A DNA stretch of 64,000 nucleotides from an uncultured Erysipelotrichaceae bacterium (GTDB lineage: Bacteria; Bacillota_I; Bacilli_A; RFN20; CAG-826): contig CADCFC010000001.1 in assembly GCA_902800645.1 (NCBI GenBank), positions 186,907-250,906 of the forward strand, given 5' to 3'. Both the position numbers and the translations under genes were made by a program. The number at the start of each line of letters is the position of its first letter. The stretch's first letter is position 1. Positions 9,467 to 61,962 of the stretch are shown piece by piece. The notes beneath the pieces are model-generated. The model saw only the letters and a program-made list of their open reading frames with translations, made no database searches and was not told the DNA's origin.

Positions 9467-11467
9467 ATGTATCCTGAATATAACAAAGTTAAAGCCAAAT
9501 GTGAGGAAGCAAATCTTCTTTTTGAAACATCAAGAACAATGGAAGACATCTTTTTCCTTTCTACTAAAAGAAACGAAAAAAGAATCGCTGTCACTTACGT
9601 TGACCAAAAAGGAAAGAATAAGAAATATAAATATTCTTTATTCAGAAAACACGCATTTGAAATCGCTTCAATTCTCGCGAATTTCATGATTCAACAACCA
9701 AAAAATGTTCCAATCGTTTTAAAAGCCGCAAATAGTCCACACTGGGGAGAAATATTCTGGGCAATCTTAATGTGTGGTTATAAACCATTATTAGTGGACG
9801 CAAGAACTTCTAAAGAAGGAACAGAAAATTTAATCGCTCAAGGTAAAGCAGTTGCAATCATCACTGATGACAACTACACATATAACGTTCCAAAATTCTC
9901 ATTAAAAGATATTCTCGAAGAGAAACACAGTTATGATTTTGCTCCTAATTGGGAGAATGAAGTCATCTTCTGTTCAAGTGGAACAACTGGTAACGTTAAG
10001 TTAATGGTGTTTAACGGAGAAAACCTCTGTAACCAAATTGCTGCAGCGTTAGACTTCCAAGAAACAAGTAAAACATTGCTCTATCCAAAATCAATGGGTG
10101 AATTAAGAGTCATGGCAATGATTCCTTTCCACCACATCTTTGGATTTATCGCTACCTTCTTATGGTATTTCTATTTCGGTGCCAACTTTGTATTCGTTAG
10201 ATCTTTAGCGCCTACTGAAGTTCAAACCACCGCTCAAAAATTCAAAGTCACCCACGTCTTCTCAGTCCCATTATTCTGGGATTCAGTTGCTCAAGGTTTA
10301 GAAAGAAAAAGAGCGTTAGAAACACCAGCAAAGCAGCAATTAATAGATAAGTTAATCGGATATAACACCGGTAAGATTACAAGAGAAGAAGCCGGACCTT
10401 ATAAAGCGGTTCAAAGCGTTATTCAATCTAACTTACTTGGAAAGCACATCAAATTCTGTATTTCCGGTGGCGGATATCTCGATAGCAAAACTCAAACAGT
10501 TATCAATGGTATTGGTTATCCATTATATAATGGATATGGTATGACCGAAATCGGCATTACTTCTGTTGAACTATCTCCTGAGGTCGAATTAAGACTTAAA
10601 GGTAGCATCGGAGTTCCTTTCCATGGAGTATCCTACAAAATCAAACCAACCAACAAGAAAAACCCAAATACTGGTGAGCTCTTTGTTAAATCAAAAATCA
10701 CCCATATTAGAGAGATTATTGGTGGAGAAGAAAGAGAAACCGTTCTTGATGAAGATGGATATTTCGCAACTGGTGATATCGCTGAAGTTGATCCAACCAA
10801 TAGATATTACTTAAAAGGTAGAATTAAAGACGTCATCATTAACGCTGACGGAGAAAACATATTCCCAGACGAACTTGAAATCTTCTTCAAAGGTCTTAAG
10901 CACGTACAAAACGTATGTGTGCTTGGAATTGATCAAAAGGGTTCTAAAAATCAAAAAGTTGTTTGTGCAGTTGAAATCAATAACTCTGCAAGTGAGCAAG
11001 AATTAGAAGAACTCAAAGAAAAGATGAGAAAGATTGGTCAAGACCTTCCTAAAGGAACAAAGATTACAGACTTCTATTTCTGTAGAAAGAAACTCCCAAT
11101 CGCTAATAATATGAAAGTTAAGAGATTCGTTGTTAAAAACGGTATTGAATCTCAATCAGGTGATTACATTTCCTTCGACTACAAGAAGGAAAAGAAATCC
11201 ACTCGTAACTTCGATCAAAAGACAGTCACAGAAGTATTAGAACCAATGAGAGCAATCTTCTCTAAGATTCTTATTCTTCCATCATTCAAAATCGATGATG
11301 ACGGACATTGGGTTGACGACTTAGGTGGAGACTCAATGAGTTATGTAGAACTCATCACTAATGTACAAGACCATTTCGGAGTTACTATTCCTGAAGAGTT
11401 ATATGGAAAATTAGCAACTCTCAATGATTTCGTTGAAGAAGTCGCTAAACTTAGAGGCAAAAAATAA
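9467..11467 (+). CDS. AMP-dependent acyl ligase fused to an acyl-carrier domain
   Basis: 666 residues. The adenylating domain shows the P-loop FCSSGTTGNVK (about 169-178), NGYGMTEIG, YFATGDIAEVD, and the hinge/catalytic segment LKGRIKDVIINADGENIFP. The final 80 residues form a carrier domain with DDLGGDSMSYVEL, where Ser623 is the likely phosphopantetheine site. The enzyme probably activates a fatty or other carboxylic acid as acyl-AMP and loads it on its own carrier. The acceptor is unknown, as no ketosynthase or condensation domain is nearby. A GAAAGAAAG ribosome site precedes the start. Lipid recycling or lipopeptide-like chemistry are both possible. Confidence 0.85.
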   Translation: MYPEYNKVKAKCEEANLLFETSRTMEDIFFLSTKRNEKRIAVTYVDQKGKNKKYKYSLFRKHAFEIASILANFMIQQPKNVPIVLKAANSPHWGEIFWAILMCGYKPLLVDARTSKEGTENLIAQGKAVAIITDDNYTYNVPKFSLKDILEEKHSYDFAPNWENEVIFCSSGTTGNVKLMVFNGENLCNQIAAALDFQETSKTLLYPKSMGELRVMAMIPFHHIFGFIATFLWYFYFGANFVFVRSLAPTEVQTTAQKFKVTHVFSVPLFWDSVAQGLERKRALETPAKQQLIDKLIGYNTGKITREEAGPYKAVQSVIQSNLLGKHIKFCISGGGYLDSKTQTVINGIGYPLYNGYGMTEIGITSVELSPEVELRLKGSIGVPFHGVSYKIKPTNKKNPNTGELFVKSKITHIREIIGGEERETVLDEDGYFATGDIAEVDPTNRYYLKGRIKDVIINADGENIFPDELEIFFKGLKHVQNVCVLGIDQKGSKNQKVVCAVEINNSASEQELEELKEKMRKIGQDLPKGTKITDFYFCRKKLPIANNMKVKRFVVKNGIESQSGDYISFDYKKEKKSTRNFDQKTVTEVLEPMRAIFSKILILPSFKIDDDGHWVDDLGGDSMSYVELITNVQDHFGVTIPEELYGKLATLNDFVEEVAKLRGKK

Positions 11468-11816: not shown

Positions 11817-12794
11817 TTATTGCGTTTTAAATTTTAAGATAAACATCTCAAAAGCATAATGGCGGTCAACTTGACCGCTTTTTATGTCGAGATCTAACTG
11901 ATATAAGTCATCAAGAGTATTGTGTATTGTTTTTTCAGAAATCATTGGTAAGAGTTTAGAAAGGATATAGACTCTTCCTGGTTTTATTTTAAGTTCACTA
12001 GCAATATCTTCTTTGCTCATTCTTTTTCTAGATAAATAAGCAACTTCATTGAGTAATCTAAATTGATTAGCGAGTTGACTAATCAAAGTTACAGGTTCAA
12101 CGTTTTTCACTCTTAAATCTTTAAAGAGTTCCACTGCTTCTGCATTCTTCCCATCTAAAAGCATATTAAATAAAAGGAATGCATTATCTTCAAGTGGCTT
12201 AGCCACCATTAATGTTACGTCTTTATAACGGATATGATCTGTATATAATGTTAAAACATTAATTGCGTTAATAAATAAGCCAACATCTCCATTAGTGCGG
12301 TTAGTTAATTCCATAATCGCATCGCGGTCAATTGTGATTCCTTTTTTACTAACATAGGCTTTAACATATTCGTTCCAGCTCTTTTCATCTGGGTCAGCAA
12401 TCGCGATTGTTTTTCCTTTTTCTTTAATCGCTTTTACAATTGGATTTTTTTCGTCGATTGAAGAAGATGTAACGGAAAGGATAAACAAGGTTTCTTCTAT
12501 TCCACCGCTTGAAACAAAATTAAGTAAGTCATCATAGTTTTGATCACTATCAATTTTATTTTTTGGTTTTGGTTTTAATAAAAAATAGCAATTTTCTAAA
12601 GAGACGACTTTCTTTTCATATCCGAGAGCAACATATTGGCATTCATCCACTGCGTCTTGAACGAGAAAGTTATTACCATCAAGTTTAACAAAGTTAAGGT
12701 CATCCGCTTTTTCTCCATCAAGAAAAGCTTCTCCAATCTTTTTGATTTGAGATTTAACTGTTGGACCTTGATTGCCGTAAACGAAATAAATCAT
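11817..12794 (-). CDS. holA: DNA polymerase III delta subunit (clamp loader)
   Basis: About 325 residues. It begins MIYFVYGNQG, matching the delta-subunit start, and has the family's AAA+ fold without a functional Walker motif, ending in a helical collar domain (LANQFRLLNEVAYL, LKIKPGRVYILSKLL). It opens the beta sliding clamp during loading. The frame extends two codons further to an ATG at 12800; the ATG at 12794 gives the conserved N-terminus. No Shine-Dalgarno sequence is visible and a -10 box lies a few bases upstream. Confidence 0.93.
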   Translation of the reverse strand: MIYFVYGNQGPTVKSQIKKIGEAFLDGEKADDLNFVKLDGNNFLVQDAVDECQYVALGYEKKVVSLENCYFLLKPKPKNKIDSDQNYDDLLNFVSSGGIEETLFILSVTSSSIDEKNPIVKAIKEKGKTIAIADPDEKSWNEYVKAYVSKKGITIDRDAIMELTNRTNGDVGLFINAINVLTLYTDHIRYKDVTLMVAKPLEDNAFLLFNMLLDGKNAEAVELFKDLRVKNVEPVTLISQLANQFRLLNEVAYLSRKRMSKEDIASELKIKPGRVYILSKLLPMISEKTIHNTLDDLYQLDLDIKSGQVDRHYAFEMFILKFKTQ

Positions 12795-12802
12795 GCACAT
12801 AT

Positions 12803-12833
12803 ATTATAGTCTTTTTGGCAGTTATTCTGTCAA
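12803..12833 (-). promoter_or_regulatory. holA promoter within the end of comEC
   Basis: On the minus strand TTGACA (12833..12828) and TATAAT (12808..12803) are 19 nt apart, a slightly long spacer. The -35 overlaps the comEC stop codon. The -10 ends 2 nt before the ATG at 12800 and 8 nt before the ATG at 12794, so an mRNA starting at the second ATG would be leaderless. Confidence 0.55.
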
Positions 12834-14830
12834 AAAGTAATTGTGCCTTCTTCATCCGTCCTTCTTATTGCTACCGAGTATTTTTTTAAAATAGCAATAA
12901 CTTCTTTGTGGGGATGTCCATAAATATTATTTACTCCACAGCTTATAATCCCTACCTTAGGCCTTAAATATTTTATAAATGCTTCACTTGTAGAAGTGTT
13001 AGACCCATGATGTCCAACTTTTAAAATGTCACATGGAATATATTTGTTATCTTTCATGATAGCGTTTTCAATCTTTTTAGGGGCGTCACCCATCACTAAA
13101 TAATTATAATTATTAATGTTAAATCCTATTACCAACGAGGAATCGTTTTCTTCCTTCCATAAGTCAGGATAGACATTGTAATTAGTTAAAGTTAGGCCAT
13201 AAGCGTTAATCGGGAACAAACTATAGTCTTTGATATAGTTAGAAACTGTAAAATTTTCAATTAGAGAATCTACCGCTCCTGAATGATCAAAATCATCATG
13301 AGTGGTAATTAATAAATCGATCTTATATATTATTTCGTTTTTGAAAAATGGAATTAGAACTTCGGTTGCAATATCTTTATATCTACTACCTCCAGTATCG
13401 ATTAATATTGTTTTATTTTTATAACGGATCAGCGTAGAGTCTCCTTGACCTACATTGATAAAACAAACATAATCCTTAAATATTGCCTTAATCGGTATAG
13501 ATAATGATGAAACAAGACCTATTATTATTGCGATAAAAGCATTCTTTAATGGTCTCAATCTAATCGATGCGTAATAAAGTAAAAATAAATATATAACAAT
13601 ATAGATGACGGATATATCACCATCCATTTGATGAATATATATTTTGGGATTAATCTTTTGAAAACCGGTCAATAAATAGAACAGTCTATTCGTTAAAAAA
13701 TTCACTGCGTTTGATATAGGTGAAACAATTATAGAAAGTAAGCCTAAAACAAAAATAAATAGATAAACCGGTGTAAATATTATTTCTAGTGGAAAAGATA
13801 AAATGGATAGCTCTGAATAATATTTAATCGTAAACGGAATAAAGGCTACTTTAATTAGTAATAAAGAAATAAACCATTTAGTAATTCTCTTTTTGAATTT
13901 AAATGAATTCTTAATAAATAATGCGATTATAGGAACGTAGAATGATAAAAAGAATGCATCCTGATATGCATAAAACGGATTAATTAATAGAAAGAATACA
14001 CCAACACCGCTAGAAAGAGCTAAATGCGAAATCTTCTTTTTCAAAAGATCATTTGTAACAAATTTAACCAGATATAAAGTGAAGAATTTTATTACCGTGA
14101 ATTTGGGGAATGTGAAGATAAAATAAGGCGTCATAAGCATCAGAGAAAAAATGTTTAAAAGTTTCTCTTTTTTAATGAATAAAGACAATAACTTCTTATT
14201 AACTTTATATAGAAAATAGAGGAACACTCCACTACTAGAAATAAGCCTTGCTATATGTAGATCTCTGCTTAGTTCAACTAGCTCATCATGACTACTATAA
14301 TTTAAAAGAATTGATCCTATTACGCCTCTAGTATTACCATCAAATTGATTCAGAAAGTTTTTCTTAACTGAATTAATTCTAAATGGAGTTAGAAATTTAA
14401 CCTCTATGCTTGTTACTTCTAACTGATAAAACACCCCTTTATTATTGAGATATTCATTAAAATTAAATTCGCTTTCTAGTGTTACAAAATTAGTGTTAAC
14501 TTTATTTCCTGTAATCGATAAATAGTCCCCTATTTCGTATCCGTGTTCTTTACTTTGAACATAATAGTTCTCAAACGAACTTGAAAAGATGAAATAGTTC
14601 TCTTTTACTTCTATGACAAATCCATAATAAGTTTCTTTAACATGATGAAATCTAATATAAGATAGACCAATTCCAAAAAGCATCACTACTCCACAAACTA
14701 ATAGCAATCGCTTTTTAAACTTTAGAAAAATAAGTAAGGCGAGTAAAACTAATTCAATTATGCTTGTAACTATAGTTACTCTAAAATTAATACCTATATA
14801 TAAAGAAAGGAATAAGAGTAAAATCGTCAC
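12830..14830 (-). CDS. comEC: ComEC/Rec2 DNA-uptake channel
   Basis: 666 residues. The first half has multiple membrane helices and the ComEC competence domain. The last 220 residues are a metallo-beta-lactamase-like domain: NVGQGDSTLIRY, TTHDDFDHSG, VMGDAPKKIE and LKVGHHGSNTSTSE. ComEC carries single-stranded DNA across the membrane, and the C-terminal domain is thought to degrade the other strand. It starts with GTG overlapping the comEA stop by 4 nt (GTGA), so the two are translationally coupled. Confidence 0.95.
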   Translation of the reverse strand: MTILLLFLSLYIGINFRVTIVTSIIELVLLALLIFLKFKKRLLLVCGVVMLFGIGLSYIRFHHVKETYYGFVIEVKENYFIFSSSFENYYVQSKEHGYEIGDYLSITGNKVNTNFVTLESEFNFNEYLNNKGVFYQLEVTSIEVKFLTPFRINSVKKNFLNQFDGNTRGVIGSILLNYSSHDELVELSRDLHIARLISSSGVFLYFLYKVNKKLLSLFIKKEKLLNIFSLMLMTPYFIFTFPKFTVIKFFTLYLVKFVTNDLLKKKISHLALSSGVGVFFLLINPFYAYQDAFFLSFYVPIIALFIKNSFKFKKRITKWFISLLLIKVAFIPFTIKYYSELSILSFPLEIIFTPVYLFIFVLGLLSIIVSPISNAVNFLTNRLFYLLTGFQKINPKIYIHQMDGDISVIYIVIYLFLLYYASIRLRPLKNAFIAIIIGLVSSLSIPIKAIFKDYVCFINVGQGDSTLIRYKNKTILIDTGGSRYKDIATEVLIPFFKNEIIYKIDLLITTHDDFDHSGAVDSLIENFTVSNYIKDYSLFPINAYGLTLTNYNVYPDLWKEENDSSLVIGFNINNYNYLVMGDAPKKIENAIMKDNKYIPCDILKVGHHGSNTSTSEAFIKYLRPKVGIISCGVNNIYGHPHKEVIAILKKYSVAIRRTDEEGTITF

Positions 14831-15357
14831 GCGTGCAAAATCACATAGTTACGTATTTTATGATATGTTGCATTGCCAATCCCGTAGACTTCTAAAAGCT
14901 GCTCAAGCGTTGAAAATAGACCATTTTCAGTTCGATAAGTAACAATTGAATTAGCAATCGTATTTGTAATGCCGTTCACAGTCGCTAAAGTAGTTGCGTC
15001 ATCACTATTAACATTTACTTTGTCCACTTCATTTACATTACATAAATCATTTGAATCGAAACGACTAGCAATATAGTAAGTCATTCCTTTTGCGAGCTCT
15101 GCGGTCTCATAATACGCTCTTTCGTCAGCGTTATTTGTTGTTCCACCACACTTTTCTAAGAGGTCACTCATGAGTGCTCCTTCATTTAATGTGTAAGAGC
15201 CTTCTTTATAAACCTCTCCTTCAACAGTTACAGTAAATGTATTAGCGACTTCAGTAACGTTTCCTACGCTCTGAATACCAATACTTGGATCGAGTACAAG
15301 AAATGTCCCAATTACTGCGATTGCGACAATTACGACCCCGATGAGTATCTTGATCAT
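14827..15357 (-). CDS. comEA: Competence protein ComEA, membrane-anchored DNA receptor
   Basis: 176 residues. One N-terminal membrane helix (IKILIGVVIVAIAVIGTFLV) is followed by an SLBB-like extracellular domain (VTVEGEVYKEGSYTLNEGAL) and a C-terminal helix-hairpin-helix DNA-binding domain (TLATVNGITNTIANSIVTYR, then LLEVYGIGNATYHKIRNYV). ComEA binds incoming double-stranded DNA and feeds ComEC. A GAAGGGGGT ribosome site precedes the ATG. Confidence 0.95.
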   Translation of the reverse strand: MIKILIGVVIVAIAVIGTFLVLDPSIGIQSVGNVTEVANTFTVTVEGEVYKEGSYTLNEGALMSDLLEKCGGTTNNADERAYYETAELAKGMTYYIASRFDSNDLCNVNEVDKVNVNSDDATTLATVNGITNTIANSIVTYRTENGLFSTLEQLLEVYGIGNATYHKIRNYVILHA

Positions 15358-55980: not shown

Positions 55981-56322
55981 TTATGCATATAATAATGCGA
56001 TTAGCATCATCAGTTCCCGATGAGCGATAAATCCAGTTATTTCGTAACGGATTGGTCCGCAATAATCTTTGATATAGCTTCCACTAATCTCGGCGATGAT
56101 TGGACCACAGTATTCTTTAATATAATTGCCTCTCACTTCAAGGAGATATCTACCACAGTATTCTTTAATGTAGTTTCCGCTTATTTCATATAAGTTCCTA
56201 CCACAGTATTCCTTGATATAGTTTCCGTTAAGCTCATATTTAAAAGGACCACAGTATTCTTTGACTCTGCCACCAGTGATTTCTAATATATTAGGACCAC
56301 AATACTTTTTAAGATACGCCAT
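55981..56322 (-). CDS. Tandem 16-residue YCG-repeat protein, unknown function
   Basis: 113 residues: six copies of a 16-residue unit, consensus KEYCGxxxYEIxGNYI, spaced by 48 bp in the DNA. Each unit holds one Tyr-Cys-Gly, an alternating hydrophobic strand and a Gly turn, suggesting a short-strand beta structure with six aligned cysteines. The last 16 residues (HRELMMLIALLYA) are hydrophobic. There is no signal peptide. I cannot name the family; similar KxYxGxxxY repeats occur in uncharacterised proteins. A TATAAT box lies 13 nt before the ATG. Confidence 0.7.
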   Translation of the reverse strand: MAYLKKYCGPNILEITGGRVKEYCGPFKYELNGNYIKEYCGRNLYEISGNYIKEYCGRYLLEVRGNYIKEYCGPIIAEISGSYIKDYCGPIRYEITGFIAHRELMMLIALLYA

Positions 56323-57223: not shown

Positions 57224-58448
57224 TATTTTAAGAATTTGGAGAGAATTTTCTTTTTCTTTTGGCTATATGGATGCTCTCTTAAAGAAAGATTAAAATGCGT
57301 CTTTCCAAATAAAACCGTAGAAGGATGAGTGAATTCTTTAAATCCCCATTCTCCGTGATAGGCTCCCATACCAGAGTGGCCAGTTCCATTAAATGGAACT
57401 CCTTTCACCATTAAGTGGAGACATACTTCATTAACACAACCTCCACCATATTGAGATGTGGACATTACTTTCTTTGCCCACTTTTTATTTTTGGTAAAGA
57501 GATATAATGCTAAACCGTGTTCTCTATTTTCAATAACTTTCAACAAGGAATTAATCTCATCATCTTCATATCTAACAATTGGTAAAAGAGGTCCAAAGAT
57601 TTCGTGATTAACAATGCCTTCATCAATATTTATAGGATATATAATCGTTGGAGCGTATTTTTGTTTTTCTTTATCACCAACTCCACCATAAACGATTCTA
57701 TCTCTATATTCATTTGCTTCTTTTTCAATATTCTCAAACGCTCGAACAGTAATTAATTTTGGATATTCTTCGTTATTAACTGGATCAGGGCCAATTTGTT
57801 TAGTGAATGCATCTTTTAGTTCTTTAACAAATTCATCTGCGACTTCACTAGCGACAGCAACTTGATTGATATTGATACAAATCTGTCCAGCGTTAGCGAG
57901 TCTAAGCAGTAATCAGCGACATCATGTCCTCCATCAATCACCACTACATATTCTTTTGGAAATGTAGATGAAATGATCTCTTTTAAGACTTCGGTAGACG
58001 CTTTTGATTTACTACTTGCTTTAATTAAAGCAGTGTTACCACCACTAATAGAGGCAGCAAGAACGCCTAAAGATAACAAAAATGGGAAATTAAATGGAGA
58101 AATAATTAAGGACACTCCATAAGGAAGTTTATATACCTTAGTAAAAATAGAAGGGAAACAGGCAAAACCTGAGAAATGTGTTTCTGGTCGATTCCACTTC
58201 CTAAGTCCTTTAATGTATTCGTTTATTTCTAAAATGATTGTGCCGATATCGCAGAAATACGCTTCGACATCACTTCTTCCTAAATCAATATAAAGAGCTT
58301 CTTCAATCTTCTTTTGGTTTAAAAGAAGGGCTTTCTTTAGCTTTTTAAGAGCTTCAATACGGAATTTAATGTCAAGTGTTTTTCCGGTTTGGAAAAATTC
58401 TCTTTGCGCTAAAAAGAGATTATGAATATCTTCTTTACTATATGGCAT
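57223..58448 (-). pseudogene. Aldehyde dehydrogenase, disrupted by an internal deletion
   Basis: The N-terminal part (start 58448) reads well as ALDH up to DGGHDVADYCLDS near 57900. It then continues out of frame as LANAGQICININQVAVASE, matching the family's NxGQxC region, and stays open to 57223 through HEIFGPLLPI. Between the two, about 55-60 residues normally holding the GSxxxG NAD motif and the ELGGK catalytic Glu are missing. The deletion is not a multiple of three. The catalytic Cys remains, but the product cannot be functional. Decay of this locus appears recent, since the remaining codons are intact. Confidence 0.85.
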
Positions 58449-59760: not shown

Positions 59761-60727
59761 TTATTTTCTACCTGCAAGAATTCGATAAAGCGGATTAACA
59801 AATCTTTTAAGAACGTATCCAATAGAGACGCTTATGATTGAAGTAATAATCCAAGTTAGAAAGAAAAATAAAACACAATTATAGTTAGTGAGATTCACTC
59901 TCGCTCTAAAGATAAGCCCGAATAATTGAGCAATCGAGAAATGGAAGAAAAATATAAACGCTGAAATCTTAAAGACTTCATGTACACTTTCTTTTTGATA
60001 TAAAGAGAAGAGAACATCAAATGATATCCATAATAATGCAACTTCCAGCAATTAAAGAGGCTATTACTAAAAGCAAAATTAGTGAAAAAGCCCCAATTAA
60101 TCTCGGTTTAAAGTGATTCATGATAGGAATCTTAAAATATGACAAATAGCAGCCAACAAAAAATAGCGGAATCCAAAGGAGTATTCCATAATAATTTGGT
60201 GTGAAGAAAATATAAATAACAAAAACAATAATCGGAATAAATATTGACCACTTCTTTAAATATTTAAAGACGAAATATAAAAGAGGCGAGCATATACAAA
60301 ACACCACTAACGGACGAATAAACCATATATGTAGGCATCCGTTAGAAAGAAAAATATCTAAAGCAACACTTTGAAACGTCAATTCAATCGTTTCTTTTTT
60401 TATCGCAGGAACAATAATTCTTACTGCTAAGAATCCTAAAATACTCCACAAGAAATATGGAATTACTAAAGAAAATAATTTCTTAAGTAACATCTTAGGA
60501 TAATCTTTTAAAACATAGTTATTAAATAACAAGTAACCAGATATTACAAAAAACGTCGGTACTGCTGCATCTCCTAAAGTGAGAAATATCCTTTGGATGG
60601 TTAATGAAAATTGATATCCATTTGCCAAAGGATCAAGAAAACCAGTAAAGGAAGAATGGATCGCAACGACTAAAATCGCCATTATGAAAGTCGCATAATA
60701 AATCTTGTTTGATATTTCCTTGCTCAT
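59761..60727 (-). pseudogene. Acyltransferase 3 family protein, frameshifted
   Basis: The N-terminal frame (start ATG 60727, possibly earlier) has the acyltransferase 3 pattern VVAIHSSFTGF and PTFFVISGYLLF and runs to a stop near 60017. The following helices, including ISFDVLFSLYQ and VLKRFVNPLYRIL, are in the next frame and stay open to 59761. The shift is at about 60020-60050. No homopolymer is present there, so it is either a real mutation or a sequencing error. It is a homologue of the intact protein at 47.8 kb. Confidence 0.75.
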
Positions 60728-60797
60728 AGTTTTGTTAGTCTTAAAATAATCTAACACATTATACAAAATCGTCTAACAAAAAATTAGAGCCATATTA

Positions 60798-60987: not shown

Positions 60988-61269
60988 TTATAAGCGGTTC
61001 CACTTCTTTCCGCATCCTTTGCAGCGAGCCCAACCATCTTTTACTACAACGTCGTTGCAACCGCAGAATGGGCAATCAGACTGATTAATTGCATCTCCAA
61101 TATCTGAAACAACGCTACAAGCTCCACCACCACTAATAGCAGAAAGTTGTTCATCAGTGAGCTCAATGCCTTCTTCTTTTGCTAACGCTAATAGTTCATC
61201 GTGGTTTTTACATTGTTTTACTTTTTTGATTTGTTCTTCGGTTAATCCTTTTAATAATTCTTTTTTCAT
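60988..61269 (-). CDS. Nif11-type leader peptide with zinc-ribbon core, copy 1
   Basis: 93 residues from ATG 61269, preceded by GGAGGAG. The leader (residues 1-49) contains ELLALAKEEGIELTDEQL and ends in a Gly-Gly-Gly (SAISGGG), typical of Nif11-like RiPP leaders cleaved after the double glycine. The C-terminal core has CPFCGCNDVV and CKGCGKKW, two CxxC knuckles of a zinc ribbon. The leader is identical to copy 2 at 44 of 49 positions. No maturation enzyme or peptidase-exporter is in the window. Shares a two-repeat promoter motif with copy 2. Confidence 0.8.
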   Translation of the reverse strand: MKKELLKGLTEEQIKKVKQCKNHDELLALAKEEGIELTDEQLSAISGGGACSVVSDIGDAINQSDCPFCGCNDVVVKDGWARCKGCGKKWNRL

Positions 61270-61311
61270 ATTAATACTCTCCTCCACAATTAATAAGTTA
61301 TCACATTGATT

Positions 61312-61328
61312 GTCACAGATGTGTCACA
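61312..61328 (-). promoter_or_regulatory. Tandem TGTGAC operator before Nif11-type peptide 1
   Basis: On the minus strand TGTGAC-ACATC-TGTGAC, two direct repeats 11 bp apart, placed at the likely -35 position upstream of the gene. The same arrangement precedes copy 2. Direct repeats at one helical turn suit a LytTR-type or similar activator (inference). Confidence 0.6.
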
Positions 61329-61349
61329 AATAGATTTTTATCTTTGCAA

Positions 61350-61538
61350 CTATTTATTACCAATAGGATCACCGTTTTCATCAACTTCCACATTATCTAA
61401 TGATGGGACAACATATTTTTTGAAATTATTCATAAATTCTGTTGATTGAGAGGAGGAATATGGAGTAAATGAATCACAATCTAATCTCATTTGATTAGCG
61501 GTAGTACCCACTAAATTGGTATATATAGAATATTTCAT
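61350..61538 (-). CDS. Possible short gene, 62 aa, unknown
   Basis: A 62-residue open frame between the two Nif11-type genes, with the start at 61538 and a possible AGGAAAG ribosome site inside the preceding hairpin. The sequence is polar (CDSFTPYSSSQSTEF) with no recognised motif. It may be a chance frame or a decayed peptide gene. Confidence 0.25.
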   Translation of the reverse strand: MKYSIYTNLVGTTANQMRLDCDSFTPYSSSQSTEFMNNFKKYVVPSLDNVEVDENGDPIGNK

Positions 61539-61540
61539 AG

Positions 61541-61578
61541 AAAAGCGCCACTTTCCTAATGTCTAGGATTTGTGGCAC
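61541..61578 (-). terminator. Hairpin after Nif11-type peptide 2
   Basis: Stem GCCAC/GTGGC and TCCTA/TAGGA with a GACAT loop (61545..61578), followed by CTTTTC on the minus strand. Weak T run; probably a terminator. Confidence 0.5.
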
Positions 61579-61624
61579 CTTTCAATGTGAGTGTGCTATT
61601 ACTATTAAAGGATTTTGAAAATAA

Positions 61625-61903
61625 TTATTTTTTGCTCCATTCATGACCGCATTTTGTGCAAGTGAGATCATAACCAACAAATGGGAACCAAACCCATTCA
61701 GTTTTAGTTGATCCACATTTTGGACATTTTACGTCACTAGGAGGTTCAGATGTACATCCACCGCCGCTAACAGCCTCTAATTGTTCATCAGTGAGTTCAA
61801 TACCTTCTTCTTTTGCTAACGCTAAAAGTTCATCACTATTTTTACAGGCTTTAACCTTAACGATTTGTTCCTCGGTTAAGCCTTTTAATAATTCTTTTTT
61901 CAT
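61625..61903 (-). CDS. Nif11-type leader peptide with zinc-ribbon core, copy 2
   Basis: 92 residues beginning MKKELLKGLTEEQIVKVKA, with ELLALAKEEGIELTDEQL and the cleavage site AVSGGG. The core has CPKCGSTKTEWVW and CTKCGHEW, a zinc-ribbon pair with CxxC knuckles. It uses the strong ribosome site AAGGAGAG. The leader is nearly the same as copy 1, while the core differs, as in multi-precursor RiPP loci that diversify cores behind a fixed leader. Function and modification are unknown. Confidence 0.8.
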   Translation of the reverse strand: MKKELLKGLTEEQIVKVKACKNSDELLALAKEEGIELTDEQLEAVSGGGCTSEPPSDVKCPKCGSTKTEWVWFPFVGYDLTCTKCGHEWSKK

Positions 61904-61945
61904 ATACTAAGCTCTCCTTCAACAATATCATTTTAGCAAATCAAC

Positions 61946-61962
61946 GTCACAAAAGTGTCACA
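61946..61962 (-). promoter_or_regulatory. Tandem TGTGAC operator before Nif11-type peptide 2
   Basis: On the minus strand TGTGAC-ACTTT-TGTGAC, the same two repeats and 11-bp spacing as copy 1. An extended -10 (TGCTAAAAT) lies a short distance downstream, so the repeats cover the -35 position. Confidence 0.6.

Follow-up and report, generated by a model that had tools for sequence, protein, structure and literature searches.

A putative co-regulated system of secreted four-cysteine ribbon peptides with a double-glycine leader in an uncultured Erysipelotrichaceae bacterium

Two minus-strand genes, A and B, in a 64,000-nucleotide stretch of DNA from an uncultured Erysipelotrichaceae bacterium (the window) were found to encode precursor peptides that probably belong to a genome-wide, co-regulated secreted-peptide system. 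In the scheme we propose, they would be two of about 13 precursors sharing a nearly constant, Nif11-like, three-helix leader that ends in a double glycine. One C39 exporter would recognize this leader, cut after the GG and export the core, and the leader is probably also recognized by one radical-SAM/SPASM enzyme through its RRE-like domain. The majority of the cores are four-Cys ribbons of 40-50 residues, probably folding around zinc, and a minority of short charged tails, often encoded just before the radical-SAM gene, would be the likeliest substrate of that enzyme. A response regulator most likely binds a tandem 11-bp operator and activates the precursor genes jointly with the operon for maturation and export. 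The cores would travel between genomes through recombination inside the leader, so that an imported core would at once be regulated, processed and secreted. The role that we favor is that of diversified secreted effectors in rumen competition or signalling; we rate the chances of an antagonistic or signalling function as about even.

Both precursor ORFs were present as described in the initial annotation (Table 1), gene A coding for 92 aa and gene B for 93 aa from ATG; gene B has an alternative GTG start at 61287, six codons upstream of its ATG. Alignment of the two ORFs confirmed that their leaders are identical at 44 of 49 residues (90%), with 83% identity over 149 nt at the DNA level. Both precursors carry SGGG at the border between leader and core, and the two cores differ as had been noted, each containing four Cys in two CxxC knuckles (...CPKCGS...CTKCGHEW and ...CPFCGC...CKGCGKKW). 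The 62-aa ORF between the two genes had no match in a Pfam or NCBIfam profile search, and 43 of its residues recur at 86% identity downstream of a gene A-type core in a relative, G192 (tblastn, DNA alignment). It is possibly an accessory or a passenger.

Table 1. Positions of the peptide genes and associated features in the window, and gene order of the maturation/export region on contig C10 of the same genome
Feature	Position	Strand	Description
Precursor gene A	61625..61903	(-)	48-aa leader (61760-61903) ending in GG; 44-aa ribbon core GCTSEPPSDVKCPKCGSTKTEWVWFPFVGYDLTCTKCGHEWSKK
Precursor gene B	60988..61269	(-)	gene A-type leader; 45-aa ribbon core GACSVVSDIGDAINQSDCPFCGCNDVVVKDGWARCKGCGKKWNRL
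62-aa ORF	61350..61538	(-)	between precursors A and B
Operator of gene A	61946..61962	(-)	TGTGACACTTTTGTGAC; two half-sites 11 bp apart
Operator of gene B	61312..61328	(-)	TGTGACACATCTGTGAC; TGTGACA-N4-TGTGAC
Near-identical block	61600..61790	(-)	leader end, gene A core, stop codon and some 25 nt behind it
C10 region, up to the maturase			in order: histidine kinase, response regulator, HipA_C-like protein, operator (C10:3326), radical-SAM/SPASM enzyme
C10 region, after the maturase			in order: short HlyD-like protein, C39-ABC exporter, second ABC transporter, STAS, STAS-APH

The source genome (1.3 Mb in 60 contigs, 90% complete) contains 13 copies of the leader on contigs C1, C5, C11 and C17, six of the precursors lying consecutively on C17 with nothing between them, and the richest relative has up to about 35 copies in one genome. 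The earlier idea of a fixed leader with variable cores was thereby borne out. G47 and G48 are invariant in all 13 leaders, followed often by G, A, V or C, and the third glycine is variable. The predicted processing site is therefore GG, not the Gly-Gly-Gly first proposed, although the triplet itself is present in both window genes. Furthermore, the leaders show the L-12, L-7 and V-4 typical of double-glycine leaders. Membership in the Nif11 family was not upheld by the HMM search: the two window peptides scored 22.1 and 19.2 bits against PF07862 (cut-off 23.8) and 20.6 and 22.9 bits against TIGR03798 (cut-off 32.3), and three of 21 relatives reached E<=1e-4 with PF07862 (best 1.8e-5, one of the three at 23.7 bits). 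Judged by these profiles, the resemblance is real and sub-threshold, and since the curated cut-offs were missed we call the leader Nif11-like rather than file it as Nif11. Carriage on a phage or plasmid was considered and set aside. The peptide genes had no plasmid match; on one viral contig, a leader with distant similarity stands before a different core.

To describe the cores, we surveyed 191 different precursors, all complete and with GG at the border. Ribbon cores with the pattern CxxC-x(6-40)-Cx(1-2)C make up 167 of them, and the remaining 24 carry short charged tails, none longer than 23 residues, with a single Cys and in many cases an end resembling KRKIES or KKRKIED; a third kind of core was not found in this set. 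With 167/191 being patterned four-Cys ribbons, the cores are not of the low-complexity, Cys/Gly/Ser-rich kind. The first Cys lies within three residues after GG in 178/191 cores, most often with Ser or Thr next to it, and the four Cys are invariant in the ribbon-core alignment (A3). At 60% identity the ribbon cores fall into 61 groups, some nearly invariant between genomes, the largest of which (45/167) includes the core of gene B. The AlphaFold2 model of gene A, built with 21 sequences, has three helices in the leader and three strands in the core (core pLDDT about 80; overall mean pLDDT 68.8, pTM 0.38). Matches of the whole model to the PDB were weak (best E 0.1, range 0.1-1) and mostly to zinc ribbons, with TFIIS, eIF2-beta, RPB9 and ZifS among them. 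The four-Cys pattern together with the predicted ribbon fold suggests that the ribbon cores bind metal, and we consider coordinated zinc the probable state of these Cys rather than cross-linking.

The initial annotation had stated that no maturase or exporter is visible, which applies to the window alone, since a radical-SAM enzyme and a C39 exporter are encoded on C10 of the same genome (Table 1). Thus, the further leader copies, the PCAT-type exporter and the radical-SAM enzyme for which a search had been suggested were all found elsewhere in the genome. The C39-ABC exporter matches TIGR03796 over its full length (826.3 bits, cut-off 853.3), its Peptidase_C39 domain scores above the cut-off (107 bits), and among solved structures its closest full-length relatives are PCAT1 (4ry2) and ComA. 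The second, NHLM-type ABC transporter (ABC2) matches TIGR03797 near full length (662.5 bits, cut-off 709.4). The HlyD-like protein of 132 aa covers only positions 2-60 of 421 in TIGR03794, at 24.5 bits against a cut-off of 156.2. Another C39 match, at C1:182470, was rejected as an exporter; it is a 398-aa membrane protein with housekeeping neighbours and no visible ATPase domain.

The radical-SAM enzyme scores above the cut-offs for PF04055 (74.7 bits) and SPASM PF13186 (31.9 bits) and contains the motifs CNLNCLHC and, C-terminally, CxxCxxYxxCxGGCP. Its N-terminal 105 aa had no Pfam match. In the structural model (pTM 0.80), this N-terminal domain is confidently predicted as three strands and two helices. 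The best structural match of the model was SuiB bound to SuiA (3e-11, full-length), followed by matches to SkfB, PqqE, ChlB with leader and CteB; SkfB and SuiB are also among the top sequence matches. The predicted fold of the N-domain and the SuiB-SuiA match support, without proving, an RRE-type maturase. Other maturases were also considered: neither LanC-like proteins (PF05147), the mark of the LanM-like enzymes initially proposed for a search, nor YcaO were matched in the 90% complete source genome. Of 35 scored radical-SAM loci, 16 have a short-tail precursor immediately 5' of the enzyme gene, and none has a ribbon precursor there. Outside these 35, a ribbon precursor (549-833) precedes the radical-SAM gene (951) at locus L178, and in the source genome the short-tail precursor is on C5, away from the radical-SAM gene. 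Modification of the short peptides by the radical-SAM enzyme is likely in our judgment; for the ribbon cores it is doubtful.

We then compared 196 genomes of the order, almost all of them MAGs, for the presence of the radical-SAM enzyme (20 genomes), the leader (25) and the exporter (23). All 20 genomes with the radical-SAM enzyme carry leaders, five have the leader without this enzyme and 171 have neither (20/0/5/171, Fisher p=5e-23), and the exporter is distributed likewise relative to the leader (22/1/3/170, p=7e-25), both tests treating as independent 196 genomes that are in fact related. In two of the five genomes with a leader and no radical-SAM gene (G034 and G143), the contig ends at the start of the exporter gene. 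In G127 (94% complete), 17 leaders were found and neither exporter nor radical-SAM gene, and two less complete genomes (G179 and G062) are further exceptions not explained by contig ends. Of 392 genomes sampled across the phylum, only five had the leader, and all five belong to the family of the source genome. Secretion with cleavage of the precursors is strongly implied, and we regard export with cut behind the GG as highly likely.

A contig scan with the radical-SAM protein returned 30 loci, several from MAGs of goat, yak or deer rumen, omasum or abomasum, assigned to Erysipelotrichaceae, Bacillales or 'Bacilli' and also to Lachnospiraceae. Among the last, Pseudobutyrivibrio UBA3626 carries a ribbon precursor (L180:8476-8793). 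Near the radical-SAM orthologue in Lachnospiraceae there are also peptides of the form '...SDDELDMVSAAG-LYEEKYKNKN' with a Cys-less core, a second precursor type, found at L191:9667-9924, L185, L180:8812-9042 and L184. In G185, small 'TKKQLKKMN...' peptides without the common leader (L158:4644-5154 and 9935-10511) flank a diverged exporter (49%); this locus is perhaps a different peptide export system.

The common upstream motif reported for the two window genes was found before both, as TGTGACA-N4-TGTGAC, 42-43 nt upstream of each ATG. With at most one mismatch, it occurs 11 times in the 1.3 Mb genome compared to once for the reversed control pattern, and is thus not due to chance. These operators precede precursors, two lipoprotein genes and the radical-SAM gene; the operator-preceded lipoprotein genes are on C11 (C11:3078 and C11:12261; L029:3078-4061 and 12261-15068). 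In 94 of 114 operator-bearing precursors the operator lies 42-44 nt before the start codon. The consensus of 113 upstream regions is TGTGgCAC[AT]TTTGTGACAA-N4-T-N-TGaTAanaTa, in which an extended -10 (TGaTAanaT) stands about 10 bp downstream of the operator. Two half-sites 11 bp apart with an extended -10 are presumably what one would expect for an activator of the OmpR or SARP type. The C-terminal domain of the response regulator had no Pfam match. Orthologues of this regulator (E<1e-60) were found in 35 genomes, all 35 of which have the operator, compared to 12 of the 161 genomes without an orthologue (p=8e-29). Co-regulation of the precursors with the maturation and export genes is well supported, and control of both by the response regulator whose gene lies 5' of the maturase gene is very probable.

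Genomes without the peptides keep the kinase/regulator pair, and there the operator precedes lipoprotein and other genes. Because regulator and operator also occur in peptide-free genomes, the regulator is not dedicated to the peptides, and the peptide system was apparently added to a regulon older than itself. A pheromone loop via the neighbouring histidine kinase is not claimed, as the kinase matches PF06580 and such pairs persist without peptides. In one peptide-free genome (L195:1114-6649), the kinase and regulator genes adjoin those for STAS, for a protein of 612 aa similar to the SpoIIE/HATPase protein of L113 and for a STAS-APH-like protein, suggesting an older signalling module.

Evidence for movement of the cores came from DNA comparison. 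In G135, G170 and G192 there are cores 98-99% identical to that of gene A, with all compared synonymous codons the same, whereas the leaders share only 80-82% nucleotide identity (dS about 0.8-1.1); two of these genomes, G135 and G192, are of a different genus from the source genome. The near-identical block extends further in G192, into part of the 62-aa ORF. More generally, codon identity was higher in the core than in the leader in 214 of 293 same-core pairs from different genomes. The cores are therefore exchanged as cassettes, and the simplest reading of these sequences is that recombination within the leader, in its conserved 3' end, puts a new core under the resident leader and promoter. 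Mis-assembly of MAGs is unlikely as a general cause since the chimeras recur in several cores and genomes.

Four other explanations were weighed against a co-regulated system of secreted zinc ribbons. The precursors could be those of a modified RiPP, in which the radical-SAM enzyme links the core Cys in sacti- or ranthipeptide-like thioethers and the CxxC pairs are cross-linked and metal-free. A SPASM radical-SAM enzyme with an RRE-like N-domain and the neighbours SuiB, SkfB, ChlB and CteB would fit, as would the position of the Cys close behind GG, in the short cores too. However, the Cys spacing and CG-x-x-W ends match zinc ribbons, the core is modelled as a three-strand ribbon, the usual operon partner of the radical-SAM gene is the short one-Cys class, and the Lachnospiraceae orthologues lie near Cys-less peptides, so we consider this unlikely. 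Intracellular zinc-ribbon proteins, either regulators or RNA-polymerase-binding, with a permanent, uncut helical N-domain would account for the weak fold matches to the TFIIS, RPB9 and eIF2-beta ribbons. The invariant GG at the domain border of 13 leaders, accompanied by L-12, L-7 and V-4, and the tight co-occurrence and common operator with a C39 exporter make this very improbable.

As to function, classical class II-like bacteriocins killing related bacteria would share the double-glycine leader, C39 exporter and two-component control, and the many fast-moving paralogues with cores exchanged across genera are in line with them. Adjacent immunity genes, however, are not evident, the six C17 precursors stand in a row with no intervening genes, the cores are soluble ribbons instead of amphipathic membrane peptides, and none matched a known bacteriocin core family above cut-off. 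The missing neighbouring immunity genes in particular argue against simple bacteriocins, which we regard as a rather unlikely answer. Extracellular zinc capture in nutritional competition agrees with the four-Cys ribbon in 167/191 cores, but scavenging would not need some 60 distinct core groups, and this number argues against it; moreover, no uptake partner was found near the peptide genes, and the operator is tied to a two-component regulator for which a zinc response is not shown. The odds of zinc capture are low.

Among described systems, the NHLP/Nif11 precursors of Haft, Basu and Mitchell 2010 (PMC2887384), with GG, paralogous expansion, TIGR03794/96/97 transporters and low-complexity cores, are similar in their long GG leader, large paralogous families, TIGR03796/TIGR03797-type transporters and mix-and-match maturases. 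Different from them, the leader here scores below the curated Nif11 cut-offs, the HlyD-like protein has only about 130 aa, and the cores are patterned ribbons in place of low-complexity Cys/Ser/Gly tails. In the prochlorosins and SyncA, one promiscuous LanM serves many precursors (PMC10783134, PMC9872173), likewise with a constant leader, scattered precursors and one enzyme per genome; here, a radical-SAM enzyme stands in a genome in which no LanC-like or YcaO protein was found, and core families are conserved across genera. The accessible part of the report on LahT from Lachnospiraceae C6A11 (PMC6363468) describes one substrate-tolerant C39 protease serving several precursors (LahA1-9) with conserved double-glycine Nif11-type leaders, as proposed here, but these belong to a lanthipeptide operon in one place, and that part does not report ribbon cores. 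SuiB, SkfB, CteB and ChlB, the top structural matches, share the radical-SAM and SPASM domains with a putative RRE-like N-domain and differ in having 12-17% identity over the aligned model and in the ribbon cores found here. Our literature search, with subscription journals mostly outside its coverage, returned nothing relevant on zinc-ribbon cores in a leader/exporter setting.

Leader-guided export systems have been described with short low-complexity cores, and the cargo here resembles small folded proteins with a metal site, with dozens of core types per lineage under one switch and natural cassette exchange. There is perhaps an even chance that this is a new class, in which zinc-ribbon mini-proteins with a RiPP-type leader share one exporter and perhaps one radical-SAM enzyme, and about 60 exchangeable core types spread in rumen Erysipelotrichaceae-like Bacilli, reaching Lachnospiraceae, via recombination at the leader/core junction. 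If so, it would represent a natural library of secreted mini-proteins and a new trait by which members of the rumen community compete or signal, and the role of one radical-SAM enzyme beside ribbon cargo would be a directly testable question.

Several other ORFs were observed around the peptide genes. Immediately downstream of gene B, an acyltransferase_3 match (PF01757, 83 bits) is split over two overlapping ORFs (59761-60766, minus strand) and is probably a frameshifted pseudogene. Upstream of the peptide genes, an IS3-type integrase-like ORF at the contig end (63027-63998, plus strand) was recognized by eye, as was a truncated aldehyde-dehydrogenase-like ORF (57816-58448, minus strand), an apparent gene remnant. 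A 113-aa ORF (55981-56322, minus strand) is made up of a 20-residue repeat, present about six times, whose motif is K(E/D)YCG(P/R)...I.G.YI.
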